From contig JJOH01000008.1 of NCBI GenBank assembly GCA_000696115.1, positions 1 to 64,000 on the forward strand: a stretch of DNA of 64,000 bases, given 5' to 3'. Positions 39,561 through 61,246 of the stretch are shown one piece after another. The notes below the pieces were generated by a model. The model was not told the origin of the DNA, did not search any database, and saw nothing but the letters and a program-made list of their open reading frames with translations. The DNA comes from Streptomyces olindensis. GTDB lineage: Bacteria; Actinomycetota; Actinomycetes; Streptomycetales; Streptomycetaceae. How positions within the stretch are numbered: position 1 is the first letter of the stretch; each line of letters starts with the position of its first letter. The translations under genes and the position numbers were made by a program.

Positions 39561-40637
39561 ATGGGAGGCTCTGTTCATTGCGAGCCTGAAGTCGAGGAGA
39601 GTGAATCCTTGCGGTCCGACGCCAACATCGCGGGACCGATGACCGATCCGGTCCCCGGTCCCCGTACCGAGTCGATGGGGGCGGATGTTTCACGTGAAAC
39701 ACCGCCTCCGATGGACGACACTCCCATCGGTCGTGCTGCCCAACTGGCGGTGGAGGCTCTGGGCCGCGCCGGCGAGGGCCTGCCACGGCCCGAGCAGACC
39801 CGAATCATCGTGGTCGCCAACCAGAAGGGCGGCGTGGGGAAGACGACGACGACCGTCAACCTCGCCGCGTCACTGGCCTTGCACGGCGGCCGGGTTCTTG
39901 TCGTCGACCTCGATCCACAGGGCAATGCGTCCACCGCGCTGGGCATCGACCACCACGCCGAAGTCCCGTCCATCTACGACGTGTTGGTGGAGAGCAAGCC
40001 GCTCTCCGAGGTCGTCCAGCCGGTCCCCGATGTCGAGGGCCTCTTCTGTGCCCCGGCCACGATCGATCTCGCCGGTGCGGAGATCGAGCTGGTGTCGCTG
40101 GTGGCACGGGAGAGCAGGCTGCAGCGCGCCATCCAGGCGTACGAGCAGCCGCTGGACTACATCCTCATCGACTGTCCGCCCTCACTCGGTCTCCTGACGG
40201 TCAACGCGCTGGTGGCGGGCCAGGAGGTCCTCATCCCGATCCAGTGCGAGTACTACGCGCTGGAGGGGCTGGGCCAGCTGCTGCGCAACGTCGACCTGGT
40301 GCGCGGGCACCTCAACCCCGCCCTGCACGTGTCGACCATCCTGCTCACCATGTACGACGGCCGGACGCGACTCGCGTCCCAGGTCGCGGAAGAGGTCCGC
40401 ACCCACTTCGGCGACGAGGTGCTGCGGACGAGCATCCCCCGATCCGTCCGTATCTCGGAGGCGCCGAGTTATGGGCAGACGGTACTGACTTACGATCCTG
40501 GTTCCAGTGGTGCCCTCTCCTATCTTGAGGCGGCACGAGAGATCGCGCTGAAGGGCGTGGGCGTCAGTTACGACGCGACGCACGCCCACATCGGCGTACA
40601 GCAGAACGACCCGAGCATGGTGGAGGGCATCCAGTGA
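39561..40637 (+). CDS. parA: Chromosome partitioning ATPase ParA
   Basis: 358 aa from ATG 39561; in-frame ATGs at 39639 and 39675 are alternatives and none has a strong ribosome site. The first 80 residues are variable. The deviant Walker A (Lys-Gly-Gly-Val-Gly-Lys-Thr-Thr) is near 98-105, with Val-Asp-Leu-Asp-Pro-Gln-Gly-Asn and Ile-Asp-Cys-Pro-Pro-Ser following. ParA is an ATP-dependent DNA-binding switch that with ParB segregates origins, in Streptomyces during sporulation. The stop overlaps the parB GTG (GTGA). A parS lies inside the coding sequence. Confidence 0.94.
39687..39700. other. parS: parS site (perfect) inside parA
   Basis: GTTTCACGTGAAAC in the variable N-terminal part of parA, read as Val-Ser-Arg-Glu-Thr. 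Confidence 0.93.
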
Positions 40638-41734
40638 GCGAGCGACGGAGGGGGCTGGGCCGTGGTCTCGGCGCACTGATCCCTGCTGCACCGACGGAGA
40701 AGTCGGTGGCCCAGGCCGCGGCGGGGGGCGCCGCTCCTACATCCCCGGCGACCGTGCCCACGCTGCCGAACGACCGTGGGGTCGCCGCAGCGAAGGTGAC
40801 GACTCTGCCGACTGTTTCACGTGAAACGGAGGAGCCGGCGCAGCCCAGTGCTCCCGCCGCGCCTGCGGCGCCCATCGGTGCGCACTTCGCCGAAATCCCC
40901 CTCGACTCCATCAAGCCGAACCCGCGGCAGCCGCGTGAGGTCTTCGATGAGGACGCGCTCGCCGAACTCATCACCTCCATCAAGGAGGTGGGGCTCCTCC
41001 AGCCGGTCGTCGTACGGCAGGTGGGTCCCGGCCGCTACGAGCTCATCATGGGCGAGCGCCGCTGGCGTGCCTGCCGTGAGGCGGGGCTCGAGGCGATCCC
41101 GGCGATCGTGCGGGCCACGGAGGACGAGAAGCTCCTCCTGGACGCTCTGCTCGAGAACCTGCACCGCGCCCAGCTGAACCCCCTGGAAGAGGCAGCCGCC
41201 TACGACCAGTTGCTCAGGGACTTCAACTGCACGCACGACCAGCTGGCGGACCGCATCGGCCGTTCCCGCCCGCAGGTCTCCAACACACTGCGTCTGCTGA
41301 AGCTCTCGCCGGCCGTGCAGCGCCGGGTCGCCGCCGGGGTGCTCTCCGCCGGTCATGCGCGGGCTCTGCTGTCCGTGGAGGACTCGGAGGAGCAGGACAG
41401 GCTGGCGCACCGGATTGTGGCCGAAGGGCTCTCGGTGCGGGCGGTGGAGGAGATCGTGACCCTGATGGGCTCGCGGCCTCAGAAGGCTCAGCGGCCCAAG
41501 GGCCCCCGGGCCGGTGCCCGGGTCTCTCCCGCGCTCTCCGATCTCGCCACCCGGCTCTCGGACCGGTTCGAGACGCGGGTGAAGGTCGACCTGGGCCAGA
41601 AGAAGGGCAAGATCACCGTCGAGTTCGCCTCCATGGAGGACCTTGAGCGGATCCTCGGGTCTCTCGCACCTGGCGAGGGCCCGGTCCTGCAGAAGAGTCT
41701 CCTGGAGGGCGACTCCGAGGAAGACGAGTCCTGA
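40634..41734 (+). CDS. parB: Chromosome partitioning protein ParB
   Basis: 366 aa. The N-terminal Leu-Gly-Arg-Gly-Leu-Gly-Ala-Leu-Ile peptide contacts ParA. A Pro/Ala-rich linker leads to the CTPase domain with Asn-Pro-Arg-Gln-Pro-Arg and Gly-Glu-Arg-Arg-Trp-Arg-Ala-Cys. A helix-turn-helix with [11 protein letters not shown] and a C-terminal dimer domain follow. It loads at parS and spreads as a CTP-dependent clamp. GTG overlaps the parA stop. A parS is inside the linker and a terminator follows. Confidence 0.97.
40814..40827. other. parS: parS site (perfect) inside parB
   Basis: GTTTCACGTGAAAC in the linker after the ParA-contact peptide, read as Val-Ser-Arg-Glu-Thr. Confidence 0.93.
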
Positions 41735-52550: not shown

Positions 52551-52805
52551 GCGCTCGCCCGTCCCTCGTCGTCGTCAGTGGTCGTCGGAATGTGCGTCCA
52601 CGCATGGTAACGATGCGCGCTGAGGGGAAGTGCCGCGGTCCGCTCGACAAGATCGCGGGCTGATGGCGGGCTGTCCGGTATGCGGCGTATGGCGGTGAGC
52701 GGTCCTTTGCTTCTCGAGGGCGGGCCTTGTGCGCCTATTGACGGACGTGTCCGCACCGGTAATGGGGGAGCTCGCGGTCGCCCGGGCCACGTACCCTCTT
52801 CTGTT

Positions 52806-54251
52806 GTGCCGAACGCCAACGAAGAAAAGTCCAGTGCCCTGAGCCAGGTGCAGCACCGCGCGGTGAGTGAACTGCTGCGGGTCGCTCCTGTCGCCGACGA
52901 CCTCGCCCGCCGCTTCCAGGAGGCCGGGTTCTCACTTGCCCTGGTCGGCGGCTCGGTCCGGGACGCGCTGCTGGGCCGGCTCGGCAACGACCTGGACTTC
53001 ACGACCGACGCCCGCCCGCAGGACGTGCTCAAGATCGTCCGCCCGTGGGCGGACGCCGTCTGGGAGGTCGGGATCGCCTTCGGCACGGTCGGCGCCCACA
53101 AGGGCGGATACCAGATCGAGGTGACCACCTACCGGTCGGAGGCGTACGACCGCACCTCACGCAAGCCCGAGGTCTCCTACGGCGACTCCATCGAGGAGGA
53201 CCTCGTCCGCCGTGATTTCACGGTGAACGCGATGGCCGTCGCGTTGCCGGAGAAGGAGTTCGTCGACCCGCACGGTGGGCTGGAGGACCTTGCGTCGCGT
53301 GTGCTGCGCACGCCTGGCACTCCTGAGGAGTCCTTCTCGGACGACCCGCTCCGGATGATGCGGGCCGCGCGGTTCGCGGCTCAGCTCGACTTCGAGGTCG
53401 CCCCGGACGTCGTCACGGCGATGAAGGAGATGGCCGGGCGGATCGAGATCGTCTCGGCCGAGCGGGTACGGGACGAGCTGAACAAGCTGATCCTCTCGCC
53501 CCACCCGCGCAAGGGACTGTCGCTGCTCGTGGAGACCGGCCTCGCCGACCACGTGCTGCCTGAGCTGCCGGCCCTGCGCCTGGAGCGTGACGAGCACCAC
53601 CGGCACAAGGACGTCTACGACCACACGCTGATCGTCCTGGAGCAGGCGATGGCGCTGGAGGACGACGGCCCTGATCTGACGCTGCGGCTGGCCGCCCTGC
53701 TGCACGACATCGGCAAGCCGCGCACACGGCGCTTCGAGAAGGACGGCCGGGTCTCGTTCCACCACCACGAGGTGGTCGGGGCGAAGATGACCAAGAAGCG
53801 CATGACGGCTTTGAAGTACTCCAACGAGCTGGTGAAGGACGTCTCACGGCTGGTCGAGCTCCACCTGCGCTTCCACGGCTACGGCACCGGTGAGTGGACG
53901 GACTCGGCGGTCCGCCGTTACGTCCGTGACGCCGGCCCGCTCCTCGACCGGCTGCACAAGCTGACCCGCTCGGACTGCACCACACGCAACAAGCGGAAGG
54001 CAGCGGCTCTGTCGCGGGCGTACGACGGCCTGGAGGAGCGGATCGCCAAACTCCAGGAGCAGGAGGAGCTGGACTCGATCCGCCCGGACCTCGACGGCAA
54101 CCAGATCATGGAGATCCTGGGCGTCGGTCCCGGTCCGGTCATCGGCCGCGCGTACAAGCACATGCTGGAGCTGCGGCTGGAGCACGGGCCGATGGAGCAT
54201 GACGCAGCCGTGGCCGCCCTCAAGGAGTGGTGGGCCGTCCAGGAAGGCTGA
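52806..54251 (+). CDS. cca: CCA tRNA nucleotidyltransferase (PcnB/Cca family)
   Basis: 481 aa from GTG 52806. The nucleotidyltransferase head has Gly-Gly-Ser-Val-Arg-Asp and the catalytic Asp-Leu-Asp-Phe-Thr-Thr-Asp-Ala. A tRNA-binding region and a C-terminal HD domain (His-Asp-Ile-Gly-Lys-Pro) follow. It adds or repairs the 3' CCA of tRNAs; poly(A) activity cannot be excluded by sequence. No ribosome site is seen, and TACCCT at 52792-52797 would place transcription start at or near the GTG, so it may be leaderless. Divergent from DUF6049 (255-bp gap). Confidence 0.93.
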   Translation: MPNANEEKSSALSQVQHRAVSELLRVAPVADDLARRFQEAGFSLALVGGSVRDALLGRLGNDLDFTTDARPQDVLKIVRPWADAVWEVGIAFGTVGAHKGGYQIEVTTYRSEAYDRTSRKPEVSYGDSIEEDLVRRDFTVNAMAVALPEKEFVDPHGGLEDLASRVLRTPGTPEESFSDDPLRMMRAARFAAQLDFEVAPDVVTAMKEMAGRIEIVSAERVRDELNKLILSPHPRKGLSLLVETGLADHVLPELPALRLERDEHHRHKDVYDHTLIVLEQAMALEDDGPDLTLRLAALLHDIGKPRTRRFEKDGRVSFHHHEVVGAKMTKKRMTALKYSNELVKDVSRLVELHLRFHGYGTGEWTDSAVRRYVRDAGPLLDRLHKLTRSDCTTRNKRKAAALSRAYDGLEERIAKLQEQEELDSIRPDLDGNQIMEILGVGPGPVIGRAYKHMLELRLEHGPMEHDAAVAALKEWWAVQEG

Positions 54252-54270: not shown

Positions 54271-54284
54271 GTTTCACGTGAAAC
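54271..54284. other. parS: parS site (perfect) after the CCA-enzyme gene
   Basis: GTTTCACGTGAAAC 19 bp after the stop codon, inside an 18-bp palindrome ATG-to-CAT. A second parS lies 51 bp further. Confidence 0.93.
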
Positions 54285-54308
54285 ATGACCCCGCGGGAGA
54301 CAGAACAT

Positions 54309-54348
54309 AGCGAGGGGCGGTGTTTCACGTGAAACACCGCCCCTCGCT
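54309..54348. terminator. 40-bp perfect palindrome: bidirectional terminator centred on parS
   Basis: AGCGAGGGGCGGTGTTTCAC (54309-54328) is followed without a gap by its exact reverse complement (54329-54348). It lies between convergent genes and, as a GC-rich stem, should end transcription from both sides. Its middle 14 bp are a perfect parS. Confidence 0.8.
54322..54335. other. parS: parS site (perfect) at the centre of a terminator palindrome
   Basis: GTTTCACGTGAAAC forming the exact centre of the 40-bp palindrome 54309-54348, between convergent genes. Confidence 0.93.
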
Positions 54349-54357
54349 GCGTCTGCC

Positions 54358-54870
54358 CTACTTCTTGTGGTCCTTCAGGCAGAGCAGGAAGTCCTTGCCG
54401 TCACCGCTCTGGGTGTACACGTACTGGAAGTCCTTGGCCTCGGCCTCGCACTTGCTGGACGCCATGGCGTCCGTGAGGAACTTGCCCTCGACCTTGGCGA
54501 GCACCTCGTACTGGGCCTTCGCGTCACCACAGTCGACGACCTCGAGGTCCGGGTTGTTGTCGTTGGTGCTGCCGCGGTGCATGCAGTCGCCGACCGCTGC
54601 CGTGTTGGCGTCGTCCCGGCTGGCTATGTAACCGCCGATGGCGACGCTCGCCACGGCGAGGACGATCACGATGTTCTTGATGGTCTTGAAGCTGAGCTTG
54701 CGGCCGGACGGCTGCGGGGGAACCGGGGCGTAAGGAGCCGCGCCCTGGGGCGGGAAGCCGGGCTGGCCGGGCTGCTGGGGATAGCCGCCCTGCGGCGGGT
54801 ACGGGGCCTGGGGCTGACCCGCGGGCTGGCCCTGTGCGAACGGGTTGCCCTGGGGCGGCGGAGTAGTCAC
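54358..54870 (-). CDS. LppU/SCO3897 family membrane protein
   Basis: 170 aa. A Pro/Gln/Gly-rich cytoplasmic N-terminus (about 1-55) and one membrane segment (about 67-83) precede a small outer domain. The domain has three Cys (near 95, 113 and 140, plus one near the end) that could form disulfides. It starts after Ala-Val-Gly-Asp-Cys, as in LppU-type proteins. No lipobox. Function unknown; the family is named after the S. coelicolor protein in this slot. GTG start with AGGGGGA upstream. Confidence 0.85.
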   Translation of the reverse strand: MTTPPPQGNPFAQGQPAGQPQAPYPPQGGYPQQPGQPGFPPQGAAPYAPVPPQPSGRKLSFKTIKNIVIVLAVASVAIGGYIASRDDANTAAVGDCMHRGSTNDNNPDLEVVDCGDAKAQYEVLAKVEGKFLTDAMASSKCEAEAKDFQYVYTQSGDGKDFLLCLKDHKK

Positions 54871-56279: not shown

Positions 56280-56313
56280 GAGGGTCCCCGGGTCGTACGA
56301 CCCGGGGACCCTC
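56280..56313 (-). terminator. Perfect 34-bp palindrome, terminator after ino1
   Basis: GAGGGTCCCCGGGTCGT and its exact reverse complement, 33 bp past the ino1 stop and 22 bp before the MFS start. Confidence 0.75.
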
Positions 56314-56346: not shown

Positions 56347-57429
56347 TCAGCGCTCGACCTCACCCTGGATGAACTTCTCGACGTTCTCGCGGGCCTCGTC
56401 GTCGAAGTACTGCACGGGCGGGGACTTCATGAAGTAGCTCGACGCGGAGAGCACGGGGCCGCCGATGCCGCGGTCCTTGGCGATCTTCGCGGCGCGCAGG
56501 GCGTCGATGATGACGCCGGCGGAGTTCGGGGAGTCCCAGACCTCGAGCTTGTACTCGAGGTTCAGCGGGACGTCACCGAAGGCGCGGCCCTCGAGGCGGA
56601 CGTAGGCCCACTTGCGGTCGTCCAGCCAGGCGACGTAGTCGGACGGGCCGATGTGGACGTTGCCCTCGCCCAGGTCGCGGTCGCGGATCTGGGAGGTGAC
56701 GGCCTGCGTCTTGGAGATCTTCTTCGACTCGAGGCGGTCGCGCTCGAGCATGTTCTTGAAGTCCATGTTGCCGCCGACGTTCAGCTGCATCGTGCGGTCC
56801 AGGATGACGCCGCGGTCCTCGAACAGCTTCGCCATGACGCGGTGCGTGATGGTGGCGCCGACCTGCGACTTGATGTCGTCGCCGACGATCGGGACGCCCG
56901 CCTCGGTGAACTTGTCCGCCCACTCCTTGGTGCCGGCGATGAAGACCGGAAGGGCGTTGACGAAGGCGACCTTGGCGTCGATGGCGCACTGGGCGTAGAA
57001 CTTCGCCGCGTCCTCGGAACCGACGGGCAGGTAGCAGACGAGGACGTCGACCTGCTTGTCCTTGAGGACCTGGACGACGTCGACGGGCTCCTCGGCGGAC
57101 TCCTCGATGGTCTCGCGGTAGTACTTGCCGAGGCCGTCGAGGGTGTGGCCGCGCTGGACCGTCACACCGGTGCGGGGTACATCGCAGATCTTGATGGTGT
57201 TGTTCTCGGAGGCGCCGATGGCGTCCGCGAGGTCGAGACCGACCTTCTTGGCGTCCACGTCGAACGCGGCGACGAACTCCACGTCGCGGACGTGGTAGTC
57301 GCCGAACTGGACGTGCATCAGGCCCGGCACCTTGGACGCCGGGTCGGCGTCCTTGTAGTACTCGACTCCCTGCACCAGCGATGCGGCGCAGTTGCCCACG
57401 CCGACGATGGCTACGCGAACCGAACCCAT
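56347..57429 (-). CDS. ino1: Inositol-3-phosphate synthase
   Basis: 360 aa from ATG 57429 (GGGAGC upstream). NAD-binding Gly-Val-Gly-Asn-Cys-Ala near 10-15 and family blocks including [10 protein letters not shown], Leu-Asn-Val-Gly-Gly-Asn-Met-Asp-Phe, and Gly-Pro-Ser-Asp-Tyr-Val. It converts glucose 6-phosphate to inositol 3-phosphate, precursor of phosphatidylinositol and mycothiol. It follows the PadR gene after 44 bp and is probably co-transcribed and repressed with it. Confidence 0.95.
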
Positions 57430-58538: not shown

Positions 58539-61187
58539 ATGAGCGAGCACCGTCGCAAACCGCCGCAGCCGCAGGGAGGCGGACGTGCCGCGGCCCGACG
58601 CGGCCAGTCCGGCTCGTCCTCCGGCCGCCGCGCGGCACCGCGAGGCGCCACCGAGTCTCCGTCCGACTCCTATGGGTCGGGTTCCTACGGCTCGGGGGGT
58701 GAGGAGCGTCCGTACGGCGGCCGTGCCGAGGCCCGGCGTGCGGCGCAGAGAAGCGGAGGTGGCCGACGCAGAGCCGCCGAGCCGGCCCGTGGTGGCCGGC
58801 GCGCCGCTCCCGCCGGTCCGGTCGGCCCGGGGCGCGGCCGAGGGCGCGCACCCGTGTCCGACAAGAAACGGCTGATCGACTACCCGCGCGCCGGCAAGTA
58901 CGGCTGGCAGCGCTGGGTGCCCTCCTGGAAGCTCGTCTCTGGCCTGTGCATCGGGTTCTTCGGCAGCCTGGTGGCCGTGGCGGGCATCGGGTACGCCATG
59001 GTGGGCGTCCCCAACGAGGAGAACGCGGCGGCCCTGTCGCAGAACAACGTCTACTACTGGTCCAACGGCCAGCAGATGGTGGCGACGGGCAGCGGCCAGA
59101 ACCGGCAGAACGTCACGATCGACCGGATCCCCAAGGCCATGCAGCAGGCGGTGATCTCGGCCGAGAACAAGACCTTCTACAAGGACTCGGGCGTCGACCC
59201 GATGGGCATCGCCCGCGCCCTGGCGAACATGGCCCGGGGCGGTGACACGCAGGGTGGCTCGACGATCACCCAGCAGTTCGTCAAGAACACGTACCTGAGC
59301 CAGGAACAGACGATCACCCGTAAGTTCAAGGAGATGTTCATCTCGATCAAGGTGGGCACGAAGCTCTCCAAGGACGAGATCCTCCAGGGGTACCTGAACA
59401 CCTCGTACTACGGGCGTGGCGCCTACGGCATCCAGGCCGCCGCCCAGACCTACTACGGCAAGGATGCGAAAGACCTCACGGCGAGCCAGTGCGCCTTCCT
59501 CGCCGCTCTGCTCAAGGGTCCGACGTACTACGACCCCGCGGGCAACGAGAGCCTCGACCCGTCGGCGAACAAGGACGCCAACCTCAAGCGGTCCAAGGAA
59601 CGCTGGGGCTGGATCCTGCAGCAGATGCACAACGACAACAAGCTCACGGACGCCCAGTACCAGGAAGCGATCAAGGAGTACCCCATGCCGCAGGGTCGCA
59701 AGGCGACCAAGGGCATGAGCGGCCAGATCAGCTACCTGGTGGACACGGCCAAGAAGTACGTCCTGAACCACTCCAACATCACGGAGCAGCAGTTCGACCA
59801 GGGCGGCTACCAGATCAAGACGACCTTCGAGAAGAGCAAGGTCGAGGCGCTGGCCAAGGCCGTCAAGAAGGTCGAGGACGAGAAGCTCGATCCGGAGAAG
59901 CGTGAGCTGGACAAGCACGTCCAGTTCGGCGCGGCGTCGGTGAAGCCCAAGGACGGCGCGATCGTCGCGCTCTACGGTGGTGCGGGCTACGAGAAGGGCC
60001 ACTTCAACAACAACGCGGACACCTCGGGCGTCCCCGTCGGTTCGACGTGGAAGCCGTTCGTGCTCGCCGCGGCCATGGAGCACGGCACCTACCGGAGCGA
60101 CGGTCCCCTCTCGCCGCTCAGCAAGTACAACGGCAACGACAATCTGAGGGTCAGGAACAACGACGGCTCCTACGTTCTGAAGAAGGACAACACGCCCTTC
60201 CGCCAGAAGAACGAGAGCGACCGCCCCTGGGGCTACATCACCTTGCGCAAGGCGATGGAGCAGTCCGTCAACACCCCGTTCGTGCAGCTCGGCATGGACG
60301 TGGGGATGAGGAACGTGCGGGACGTGGCCGAGAAGGCCGGCATCCTGGACGCCAGCTTCGCCACGCTCAACCCGTCGTTCGCGCTCGGTACCTCGACCCC
60401 CAGCGCGATCCGCATGGCCGACGCCTACGCGACGTTCGCCGCCGCCGGCAAGCAGGCCGCCCCCTACTCGGTGACCAGCGTCAAGTTCAACGGGCAGGAG
60501 GTCGACGGCTTCGACAAGCCGAGGATCACCCAGGCGATGCCCGAGAACGTGGCGAACAACGTCACCGACGTGCTGGAGAACGTCATCCAGAACGGTACGG
60601 GTAAGAACGCGCTGGCTCTGGGCCGTACGGCGGCCGGCAAGACCGGTACGACGGACGAGAACAAGTCGGCCTGGTTCGTCGGCTACACCCAGCAGCTGTC
60701 GACCTCGATCGCGATGTTCCGTGAGGATCCCAAGAGCGCCAAGCTGCTCTCCATGAACGGCACCGCGGGCGAGGAGTCCATCCACGGTGGTGACACCCCC
60801 ACCGAAGTGTGGACCGAGTACATGAAGGCCGCGCTGAAGGGCGAGCCCGACCTCGGCTTCCCGGAGGCCGAGAAGATCGGCGAGGTCCAGGACGCGGTGG
60901 GCGCTCCGTCGCCGACCCCGAGCCCGAGCGTGGAGCCCAGCGAGACACCGACCGAGTCGCCGAGCGCGACGCCCAGTGAGAGCCCGACGCTCCCGTCGCC
61001 CTCGCCGAGTGACACCTGCGGTTTCTTCGGTTGCGAGAACGACGGCGGCGGCCAGAACGGTGGCGCGGACAGCGGAGGCACGGACGGAGGGGCGAGTACC
61101 GAGCCCACGCCGACCGACACGAATCTGGACGGCGGCAACACCAGAGGCAATGGCAACGGAGGCATCTTCGGAGGCCCCGCCGGATAG
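58539..61187 (+). CDS. Bifunctional penicillin-binding protein (transglycosylase/transpeptidase, class A)
   Basis: 882 aa from ATG 58539 (GAGGAG upstream). An Arg/Gly-rich cytoplasmic N-terminus (about 1-125) precedes a membrane segment (about 133-156). The GT51 glycosyltransferase domain has catalytic Glu209 in Ala-Glu-Asn-Lys-Thr-Phe-Tyr and Gly-Gly-Ser-Thr-Ile-Thr-Gln-Gln. The transpeptidase domain has Ser502-Thr-Trp-Lys505, Ser-Val-Asn and Lys701-Thr-Gly. A Ser/Pro/Thr and Asn/Gly-rich tail ends it. The first GT motif is Glu-Asn rather than the usual Glu-Asp. It builds and cross-links peptidoglycan. Confidence 0.95.
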   Translation: MSEHRRKPPQPQGGGRAAARRGQSGSSSGRRAAPRGATESPSDSYGSGSYGSGGEERPYGGRAEARRAAQRSGGGRRRAAEPARGGRRAAPAGPVGPGRGRGRAPVSDKKRLIDYPRAGKYGWQRWVPSWKLVSGLCIGFFGSLVAVAGIGYAMVGVPNEENAAALSQNNVYYWSNGQQMVATGSGQNRQNVTIDRIPKAMQQAVISAENKTFYKDSGVDPMGIARALANMARGGDTQGGSTITQQFVKNTYLSQEQTITRKFKEMFISIKVGTKLSKDEILQGYLNTSYYGRGAYGIQAAAQTYYGKDAKDLTASQCAFLAALLKGPTYYDPAGNESLDPSANKDANLKRSKERWGWILQQMHNDNKLTDAQYQEAIKEYPMPQGRKATKGMSGQISYLVDTAKKYVLNHSNITEQQFDQGGYQIKTTFEKSKVEALAKAVKKVEDEKLDPEKRELDKHVQFGAASVKPKDGAIVALYGGAGYEKGHFNNNADTSGVPVGSTWKPFVLAAAMEHGTYRSDGPLSPLSKYNGNDNLRVRNNDGSYVLKKDNTPFRQKNESDRPWGYITLRKAMEQSVNTPFVQLGMDVGMRNVRDVAEKAGILDASFATLNPSFALGTSTPSAIRMADAYATFAAAGKQAAPYSVTSVKFNGQEVDGFDKPRITQAMPENVANNVTDVLENVIQNGTGKNALALGRTAAGKTGTTDENKSAWFVGYTQQLSTSIAMFREDPKSAKLLSMNGTAGEESIHGGDTPTEVWTEYMKAALKGEPDLGFPEAEKIGEVQDAVGAPSPTPSPSVEPSETPTESPSATPSESPTLPSPSPSDTCGFFGCENDGGGQNGGADSGGTDGGASTEPTPTDTNLDGGNTRGNGNGGIFGGPAG

Positions 61188-61210: not shown

Positions 61211-61224
61211 GTTTCACGTGAAAC
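61211..61224. other. parS: parS site (perfect), first of a close pair
   Basis: GTTTCACGTGAAAC 23 bp after the PBP stop; its centre is 22 bp from that of the next site. Confidence 0.93.
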
Positions 61225-61232
61225 GTCAGGCT

Positions 61233-61246
61233 GTTTCACGTGAAAC
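61233..61246. other. parS: parS site (perfect), second of a close pair
   Basis: GTTTCACGTGAAAC, 8 bp after the first site and 1 bp before the terminator stem at 61248. Confidence 0.93.

Follow-up and report, generated by a model that had tools for sequence, protein, structure and literature searches.

Can a bacterial centromere site and a transcript-end hairpin be one and the same sequence? The question was raised by a 40-bp palindrome at positions 54309-54348 of the window, by which we mean the whole stretch of 64,000 nucleotides of Streptomyces olindensis DNA that was analysed. The first-pass annotation had described this palindrome as a perfect, loop-less repeat with a parS site at its exact centre, lying between convergent genes and close to a second parS. 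On these points of anatomy it was confirmed: the arms pair perfectly, the centre has no unpaired bases at the DNA level, the middle 14 bp are parS, and another exact parS at 54271-54284 lies 51 bp off, measured start to start. The genes that converge on the palindrome encode a CCA tRNA nucleotidyltransferase, whose S. coelicolor counterpart is SCO3896, and a protein of the LppU/SCO3897 family. The features concerned are as follows.

39711-40637, parA, in the same window, ending 13.7 kb left of the palindrome
40754-41734, parB, in the same window, ending 12.6 kb left of the palindrome
52680-54251, plus strand, CCA tRNA nucleotidyltransferase gene (TIGR02692); 52680 marks the longest frame and not a settled start codon
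54262-54293, unstranded, proximal parS-centred hairpin, a perfect 18-bp centre flanked by outer arms CGGGG/CCCCG
54271-54284, unstranded, parS nearer to the CCA gene, exact GTTTCACGTGAAAC by sequence match
54309-54348, unstranded, distal parS-centred hairpin, a perfect palindrome with 20-bp arms
54322-54335, unstranded, parS (predicted ParB site), exact GTTTCACGTGAAAC, at the exact centre of the distal palindrome
54358-54870, minus strand, converging LppU/SCO3897-family gene (NF049863, score over its cut-off)

Both parS sites fall inside the 106-bp gap of the converging gene pair. The site at 54271-54284 begins 19 nt from the end of the CCA gene and that at 54322-54335 lies 22 nt from the stop codon of the LppU/SCO3897-family gene. 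The 14-bp word GTTTCACGTGAAAC is taken here to be the ParB site parS of Streptomyces. The genome (9.37 Mb, 112 contigs) holds 22 exact copies, as against none for a reversed-pattern control, and they are clustered near parAB, with 19 of the 22 on the contig that bears parA and parB; in this placement and in the exact 14-bp core the sites resemble the chromosomal parS of the Streptomyces ParABS system.

Two other parS-bearing repeats were noted in the window. At 39687-39700 a parS stands 10 bp ahead of the predicted parA start (39711), inside an imperfect inverted repeat that is possibly a leader hairpin of parA; similar flanks are found at a comparable site in 7/7 Streptomyces genomes. At 61211-61246, 23 nt past the stop of a penicillin-binding-protein gene (58854-61187), two parS lie 22 bp apart start to start, and this palindromic pair could fold together as one hairpin (z -3.9 and -3.2). 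Close pairs of this kind are present in other genomes too.

The parS hairpins and the conservation of their arms

The distal element is the longest perfect loop-less palindrome of the window. When both of its 13-nt flanks were shuffled around a fixed parS core, all 13 further nested pairs were recovered in 6 of 200,000 shuffles, and the RNA of 54303-54357 has a predicted folding energy of -40.9 kcal/mol on one strand (z -9.5) and -41.2 kcal/mol on the other (z -8.1). The proximal hairpin, with -18.6 kcal/mol (z -3.6) and -21.0 kcal/mol (z -5.0) in the same order, is preserved in relatives. A search of Rfam gave three hits, none of which reached its gathering score; each was to a microRNA model from animals or plants and was attributed to chance resemblance with a long hairpin. 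The runner-up among perfect loop-less palindromes, at 56280-56313, has 17-bp arms and contains no parS. It lies 33 nt past the stop of a minus-strand gene of the inositol-1-phosphate synthase family (56347-57429) and is a parS-free counterpart of the distal element, which shows that there is nothing special in a missing central loop.

Genome contigs were scanned for the CCA enzyme, and at least 591 relatives were confirmed. The best 80 of these, all close relatives and Streptomyces by title, were retained; with the window, they make up a set of 81 junctions. Counting parS up to 200 bp past the CCA stop, with two core positions free to vary, 75 junctions carry two sites, six carry one and none is without. 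The distance from the CCA-gene stop to the first parS has a median of 19 nt over the 81 junctions; the opposing-stop finder chose wrong frames in many loci, and the CCA-side distance alone was used. In 78 of the 81 junctions there is a strong hairpin whose centre is a parS or falls between two of them; the exceptions are L042, L075 and L078. The parS-centred hairpin is a real element, as had been claimed, although it usually occurs twice per junction and not once. Arms and core are conserved together within Streptomyces, with compensatory changes in the arms. The pattern that the first-pass annotation had regarded as fatal to its idea, parS kept without arms, is not the case in these 78 junctions; the picture is more mixed outside the genus.

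Stem positions 9-18 were examined for covariation in 75 junctions. Watson-Crick pairs fill 77.7% of cells at the proximal element and 83.6% at the distal one, compared with 52.0% and 63.9% when right arms were shuffled among species. The highest pairing in 500 such shuffles was 56.4% (proximal) and 68.1% (distal), and sliding the partner by 1-4 nt lowered pairing to 16-35% and 27-44% respectively. Kinship was controlled for with 26 sister pairs on the CCA-gene tree, counting the cells that were paired in the first member. The proximal stem shows 46 compensated double, 6 uncompensated double and 24 single changes, that is 52 doubles in all where 19.7 would be expected with independent sides; for the distal stem the counts are 33, 4 and 20, that is 37 doubles where 9.9 would be expected. 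Judged from these alignments, the arms appear to be free in sequence, with their pairing alone being kept. Wobble pairs were also tried as a pointer to the selected transcript, but they have no strand bias (17 vs 14; 13 vs 12), so this test could not tell; the absence of bias means that the constraint is symmetric between the strands.

In the wider family, parS is present at the CCA junction in 18 of 30 loci and absent from 12. A parS hairpin passes the same threshold in ten of the 18 parS-bearing loci, three of these ten being Streptomyces itself, but not in the other eight. The two parts can also be found separately. In L042 and L078 parS occurs without strong arms, in L075 and L090 strong hairpin arms are retained around an altered parS core, and in L147 an arm-less parS stands beside a separate strong hairpin that is free of parS. 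That each part occurs alone argues against a strict coupling of the two, while not excluding one.

Proposed transcript ends at the junction

We propose that the junction holds two dual-use elements, each of them a ParB site in the DNA and a two-way, U-poor terminator or 3'-end barrier in the RNA, and we consider this explanation probable. At the DNA level each element would be a parS for ParB loading, presumably occupied by ParB at this junction. At the RNA level it would form a long GC-rich hairpin in which the tip, GUUUC-ACGU-GAAAC, is the transcript of parS and the stem consists of the lineage-specific arms. Its near symmetry would allow the hairpin to form in transcripts from either side, and it could then serve both converging genes as a two-way terminator of the U-poor ('I-shaped'-like) type or as a barrier at the 3' end. 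The likely origin of such an element is exaptation: because parS is already an inverted repeat, it may have been lengthened outward by selection for a 3'-end hairpin at a crowded junction.

The setting of the junction is consistent with a terminator, in that 3' ends converge there and ordinary strong hairpins stand in six of the 12 parS-free loci of related genera (L140-L143, L145 and L146; the other six were below threshold). In S. clavuligerus, a 40-nt fold energy at 30 °C of -23 kcal/mol or lower is given as the cut for highly structured transcript ends in the part of PMC8269248 used here. The proximal element reaches it in 60/75 junctions on the plus strand and 55/75 on the minus strand, and the distal element in 67/75 and 66/75; the window's own proximal element, at -20.5, lies above the cut on the plus strand. 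Three or more U in 8 nt were found at the proximal element in 8/75 junctions (plus) and 25/75 (minus), and at the distal element in 25/75 and 19/75. In the window, the first 8 nt past the distal palindrome contain two T on the plus strand and four on the minus strand. The GC stem is therefore accompanied by no canonical U-tract on the plus strand and by a weak one on the minus strand, and a generic terminator scan flags 54309-54348 on the minus strand only (3 sites found vs 1.7 expected).

Streptomyces terminators are described in PMC12207403, in the sections drawn on here, as having few U and the longest and most stable hairpins among the species compared. Term-seq 3' ends have been published for seven Streptomyces species listed there, S. 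coelicolor, S. venezuelae, S. lividans, S. avermitilis, S. griseus, S. clavuligerus and S. tsukubaensis. The elements resemble such U-poor, I-shaped-like structured ends in their long stable stem, short loop and few downstream U, and in that a very stable hairpin follows soon after a stop codon. They differ in having a protein-binding DNA site as the tip and in lying between converging genes, where like hairpins on both strands fit a two-way terminator.

A rival explanation, which we think unlikely but worth serious attention, is that the hairpins are stabilisers of 3' ends only. Transcription would end further on, in a Rho-dependent manner or otherwise, and exonucleases would trim the transcripts back to the stem, of which parS would still be the tip. 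With U-tracts weak or missing, the elements may indeed be exonuclease barriers after Rho-dependent termination, and the same alternative is given for U-poor structured Streptomyces ends in the Term-seq work, as far as the cited portions go (PMC8269248; PMC12207403). Against this, a convergent gap of 106 bp would seem to leave hardly any space in which polymerase could be released separately without entering the opposing gene, a point that is suggestive and not decisive.

Arm-bearing parS sites at other gene ends

A parS-centred hairpin of the same design is found again at a second junction. At contig position 74563 (L096 10563), a parS with 26-bp perfect arms lies between converging beta-lactamase-family and GNAT genes. 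Of 31 Streptomyces genomes, 29 yielded a match to this junction, and parS is present in 26 of the 29 orthologous loci. Its stem cells are paired in 69.6% of cases vs 39.8% after shuffling (maximum 49.6%), with eight or more of 10 arm pairs in 12 of the 26 loci and six or more in 19. As the arms covary here also, the design is not restricted to one gene pair. One locus of this junction, L184 in genome G044, contains four parS-like copies, all of them variants of the GTTCCACGTGAAAC type and none exact.

The wider distribution of arms was assessed at 122 exact parS in seven Streptomyces genomes, with gene context assigned by a simple caller based on codon usage. Eight or more of 10 arm pairs are present at 15 of 49 convergent sites vs 4 of 73 others (Fisher p 2.6e-4, where sites in different genomes are orthologues and not independent). 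Those outside convergent gaps comprise 2/55 tandem, 1/6 divergent and 1/12 intragenic sites, and the lone intragenic one is the CCA junction of G004, overlain by a spurious frame; in two genomes the gene caller covered the CCA junction with such a frame, and parS there is falsely intragenic. A fold z of -3 or lower was obtained for 28 convergent, 12 tandem, 1 divergent and 3 intragenic sites of the same 122. Convergent gaps account for 10.7% of the intergenic bases in 80 contiguous kb of the present genome and contain 7 of the 13 intergenic parS found there (binomial p 1.5e-4, with the reservation that adjacent copies are not independent of one another).

Five genomes from other genera of the family, covering 35 of their 38 sites, also have hairpin parS, some at tandem gene ends, and the enrichment of arm pairs at convergent sites in these five is not significant (2/6 vs 2/29, p 0.13). 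At L215 4170, in genome G019 from a genus of the family other than Streptomyces, a parS whose perfect arms measure 25 bp was observed 26 nt past a gene in tandem order. Among 51 sites in 23 genomes from other families of the class, one has six or more pairs, and arms this rare are not a general part of the ParB site. Distance to the nearest stop codon was considered as well: a z of -3 or lower was found in 36/70 parS within 40 nt of a stop codon vs 14/70 for the rest. Among tandem sites of the seven Streptomyces genomes stop-codon proximity has no effect (5/23 vs 7/32), the effect being seen in other genera only (3/3 vs 2/21). With tandem sites flat, nearest-stop distance was dropped as a general rule for Streptomyces, and our claim is one of enrichment at convergent ends only.

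Of the convergent parS junctions in the seven genomes, 33 were scored for strong hairpins and 29 have one, where 0.1 would be expected in shuffles: 12 are centred on parS, 4 are centred between two parS and 13 are elsewhere only. Two of the four junctions scored as having no hairpin, L109 and L123, were clipped by a spurious frame; both do have one (9 of 10 pairs in one junction, 10 of 10 in the other). A separate strong hairpin was found in 0/12 junctions with a parS-centred one vs 17/21 others (p 5e-6; counted by eye). Such mutual exclusion was not significant at the GNAT junction (0/13 vs 3/13, p 0.22; at a lower threshold 2/17 vs 1/9, p 1.0) or in the family set (p 0.44). Strong hairpins are a general marker of gene ends in these regions, gaps free of parS having one in 12/28 convergent, 20/148 tandem and 0/34 divergent cases. 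This pattern fits a need for a 3'-end hairpin that parS can supply.

Another possibility is that the palindrome works as DNA, either as an extended ParB site or as a cruciform, and that the RNA hairpin is incidental. The symmetric tolerance of wobble pairs and the perfect two-fold symmetry about a protein site would both agree with this, but we consider it improbable. Pairing alone seems to be kept while the arm sequence is free; fewer than 6 of 10 arm pairs are present at 93/122 parS of the same genomes and fewer than 6 at 50/51 sites in other families; parS-free hairpins stand at the CCA junction in other genera; and the arms outlive a damaged parS core in L075 and L090. A mutational explanation has also to be weighed, as template-switching during replication could perfect near-palindromes and would then yield the same perfect palindromes and compensated double changes, giving covariation without selection. 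This we regard as very improbable: among the parS of the same genomes, six or more pairs occur at only 8/55 tandem and 1/12 intragenic sites vs 19/49 convergent ones, and the hairpins at the CCA junction include ordinary ones that contain no parS. That parS merely lies beside an ordinary terminator, as might be suspected from the 13/33 convergent parS junctions with strong hairpins elsewhere only, deserves practically no credence and is already contradicted for the CCA and GNAT junctions by the centring on parS in 78/81 CCA junctions, by the covarying arms at the GNAT junction and by the rarity of such arms in flank shuffles (6/200,000).

Known systems and significance

Both parts of the proposed dual-use element, parS and the U-poor structured end, are of kinds already known, and the closest known dual use is the uptake-sequence terminator of Neisseria. 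Neisseria DNA uptake sequences form terminators in which a DNA recognition word doubles as part of a hairpin, according to the portion of PMC2397512 cited here. The likeness is that a word recognized at the DNA level is also part of a terminator hairpin. In Neisseria, however, the stem is made of two inverted copies of the word, whereas here one self-palindromic parS is the tip and the arms are unrelated to it. A two-copy stem is not found at 54309-54348, which would thus act alike without being a member of that class; despite the one-copy tip of the window palindrome, single hairpins built from two parS copies also exist, in L135 and L137.

For parS itself, the cited parts of PMC4852455 give 16 sites in S. 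venezuelae and 23 plus one in S. coelicolor, and report that nearly all ParB ChIP peaks in S. venezuelae match parS sites. The sites described here differ from these chromosomal parS in that their core forms the tip of a covarying hairpin that extends beyond it, a feature absent from those parts of the description. No report of parS terminators was found among the titles and abstract starts searched, a partial coverage that leaves room for earlier notice. The words 'terminator' and 'hairpin' are absent from the main text of a review (PMC7022226), and in PMC5521831 'terminator' is used for vector parts only.

It had also been suggested that polymerase arrival and ParB clamp loading may affect each other. 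Mutual regulation of termination and ParB loading is not supported so far. Perhaps Streptomyces sites ParB loading at terminators, such that polymerases from both sides would stop at the clamp-loading site and parS would be spared sweeping, while parS-bound ParB would be a roadblock that sharpens termination and ties the assembly of the segregation complex to local transcription; we hold this to be doubtful. Bacillus ParB passes roadblocks on DNA, as stated in the cited part of PMC9242446, and hindrance by polymerase therefore cannot be presumed.

The data indicate that one conserved sequence can be both a bacterial centromere site and a hairpin at transcript ends, and that this holds for more than one junction and throughout a genus. 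Such junctions provide a natural setting for asking how ParB clamps coexist with RNA polymerase on the same DNA. Mutating these parS in segregation studies may also remove terminators, and vice versa.
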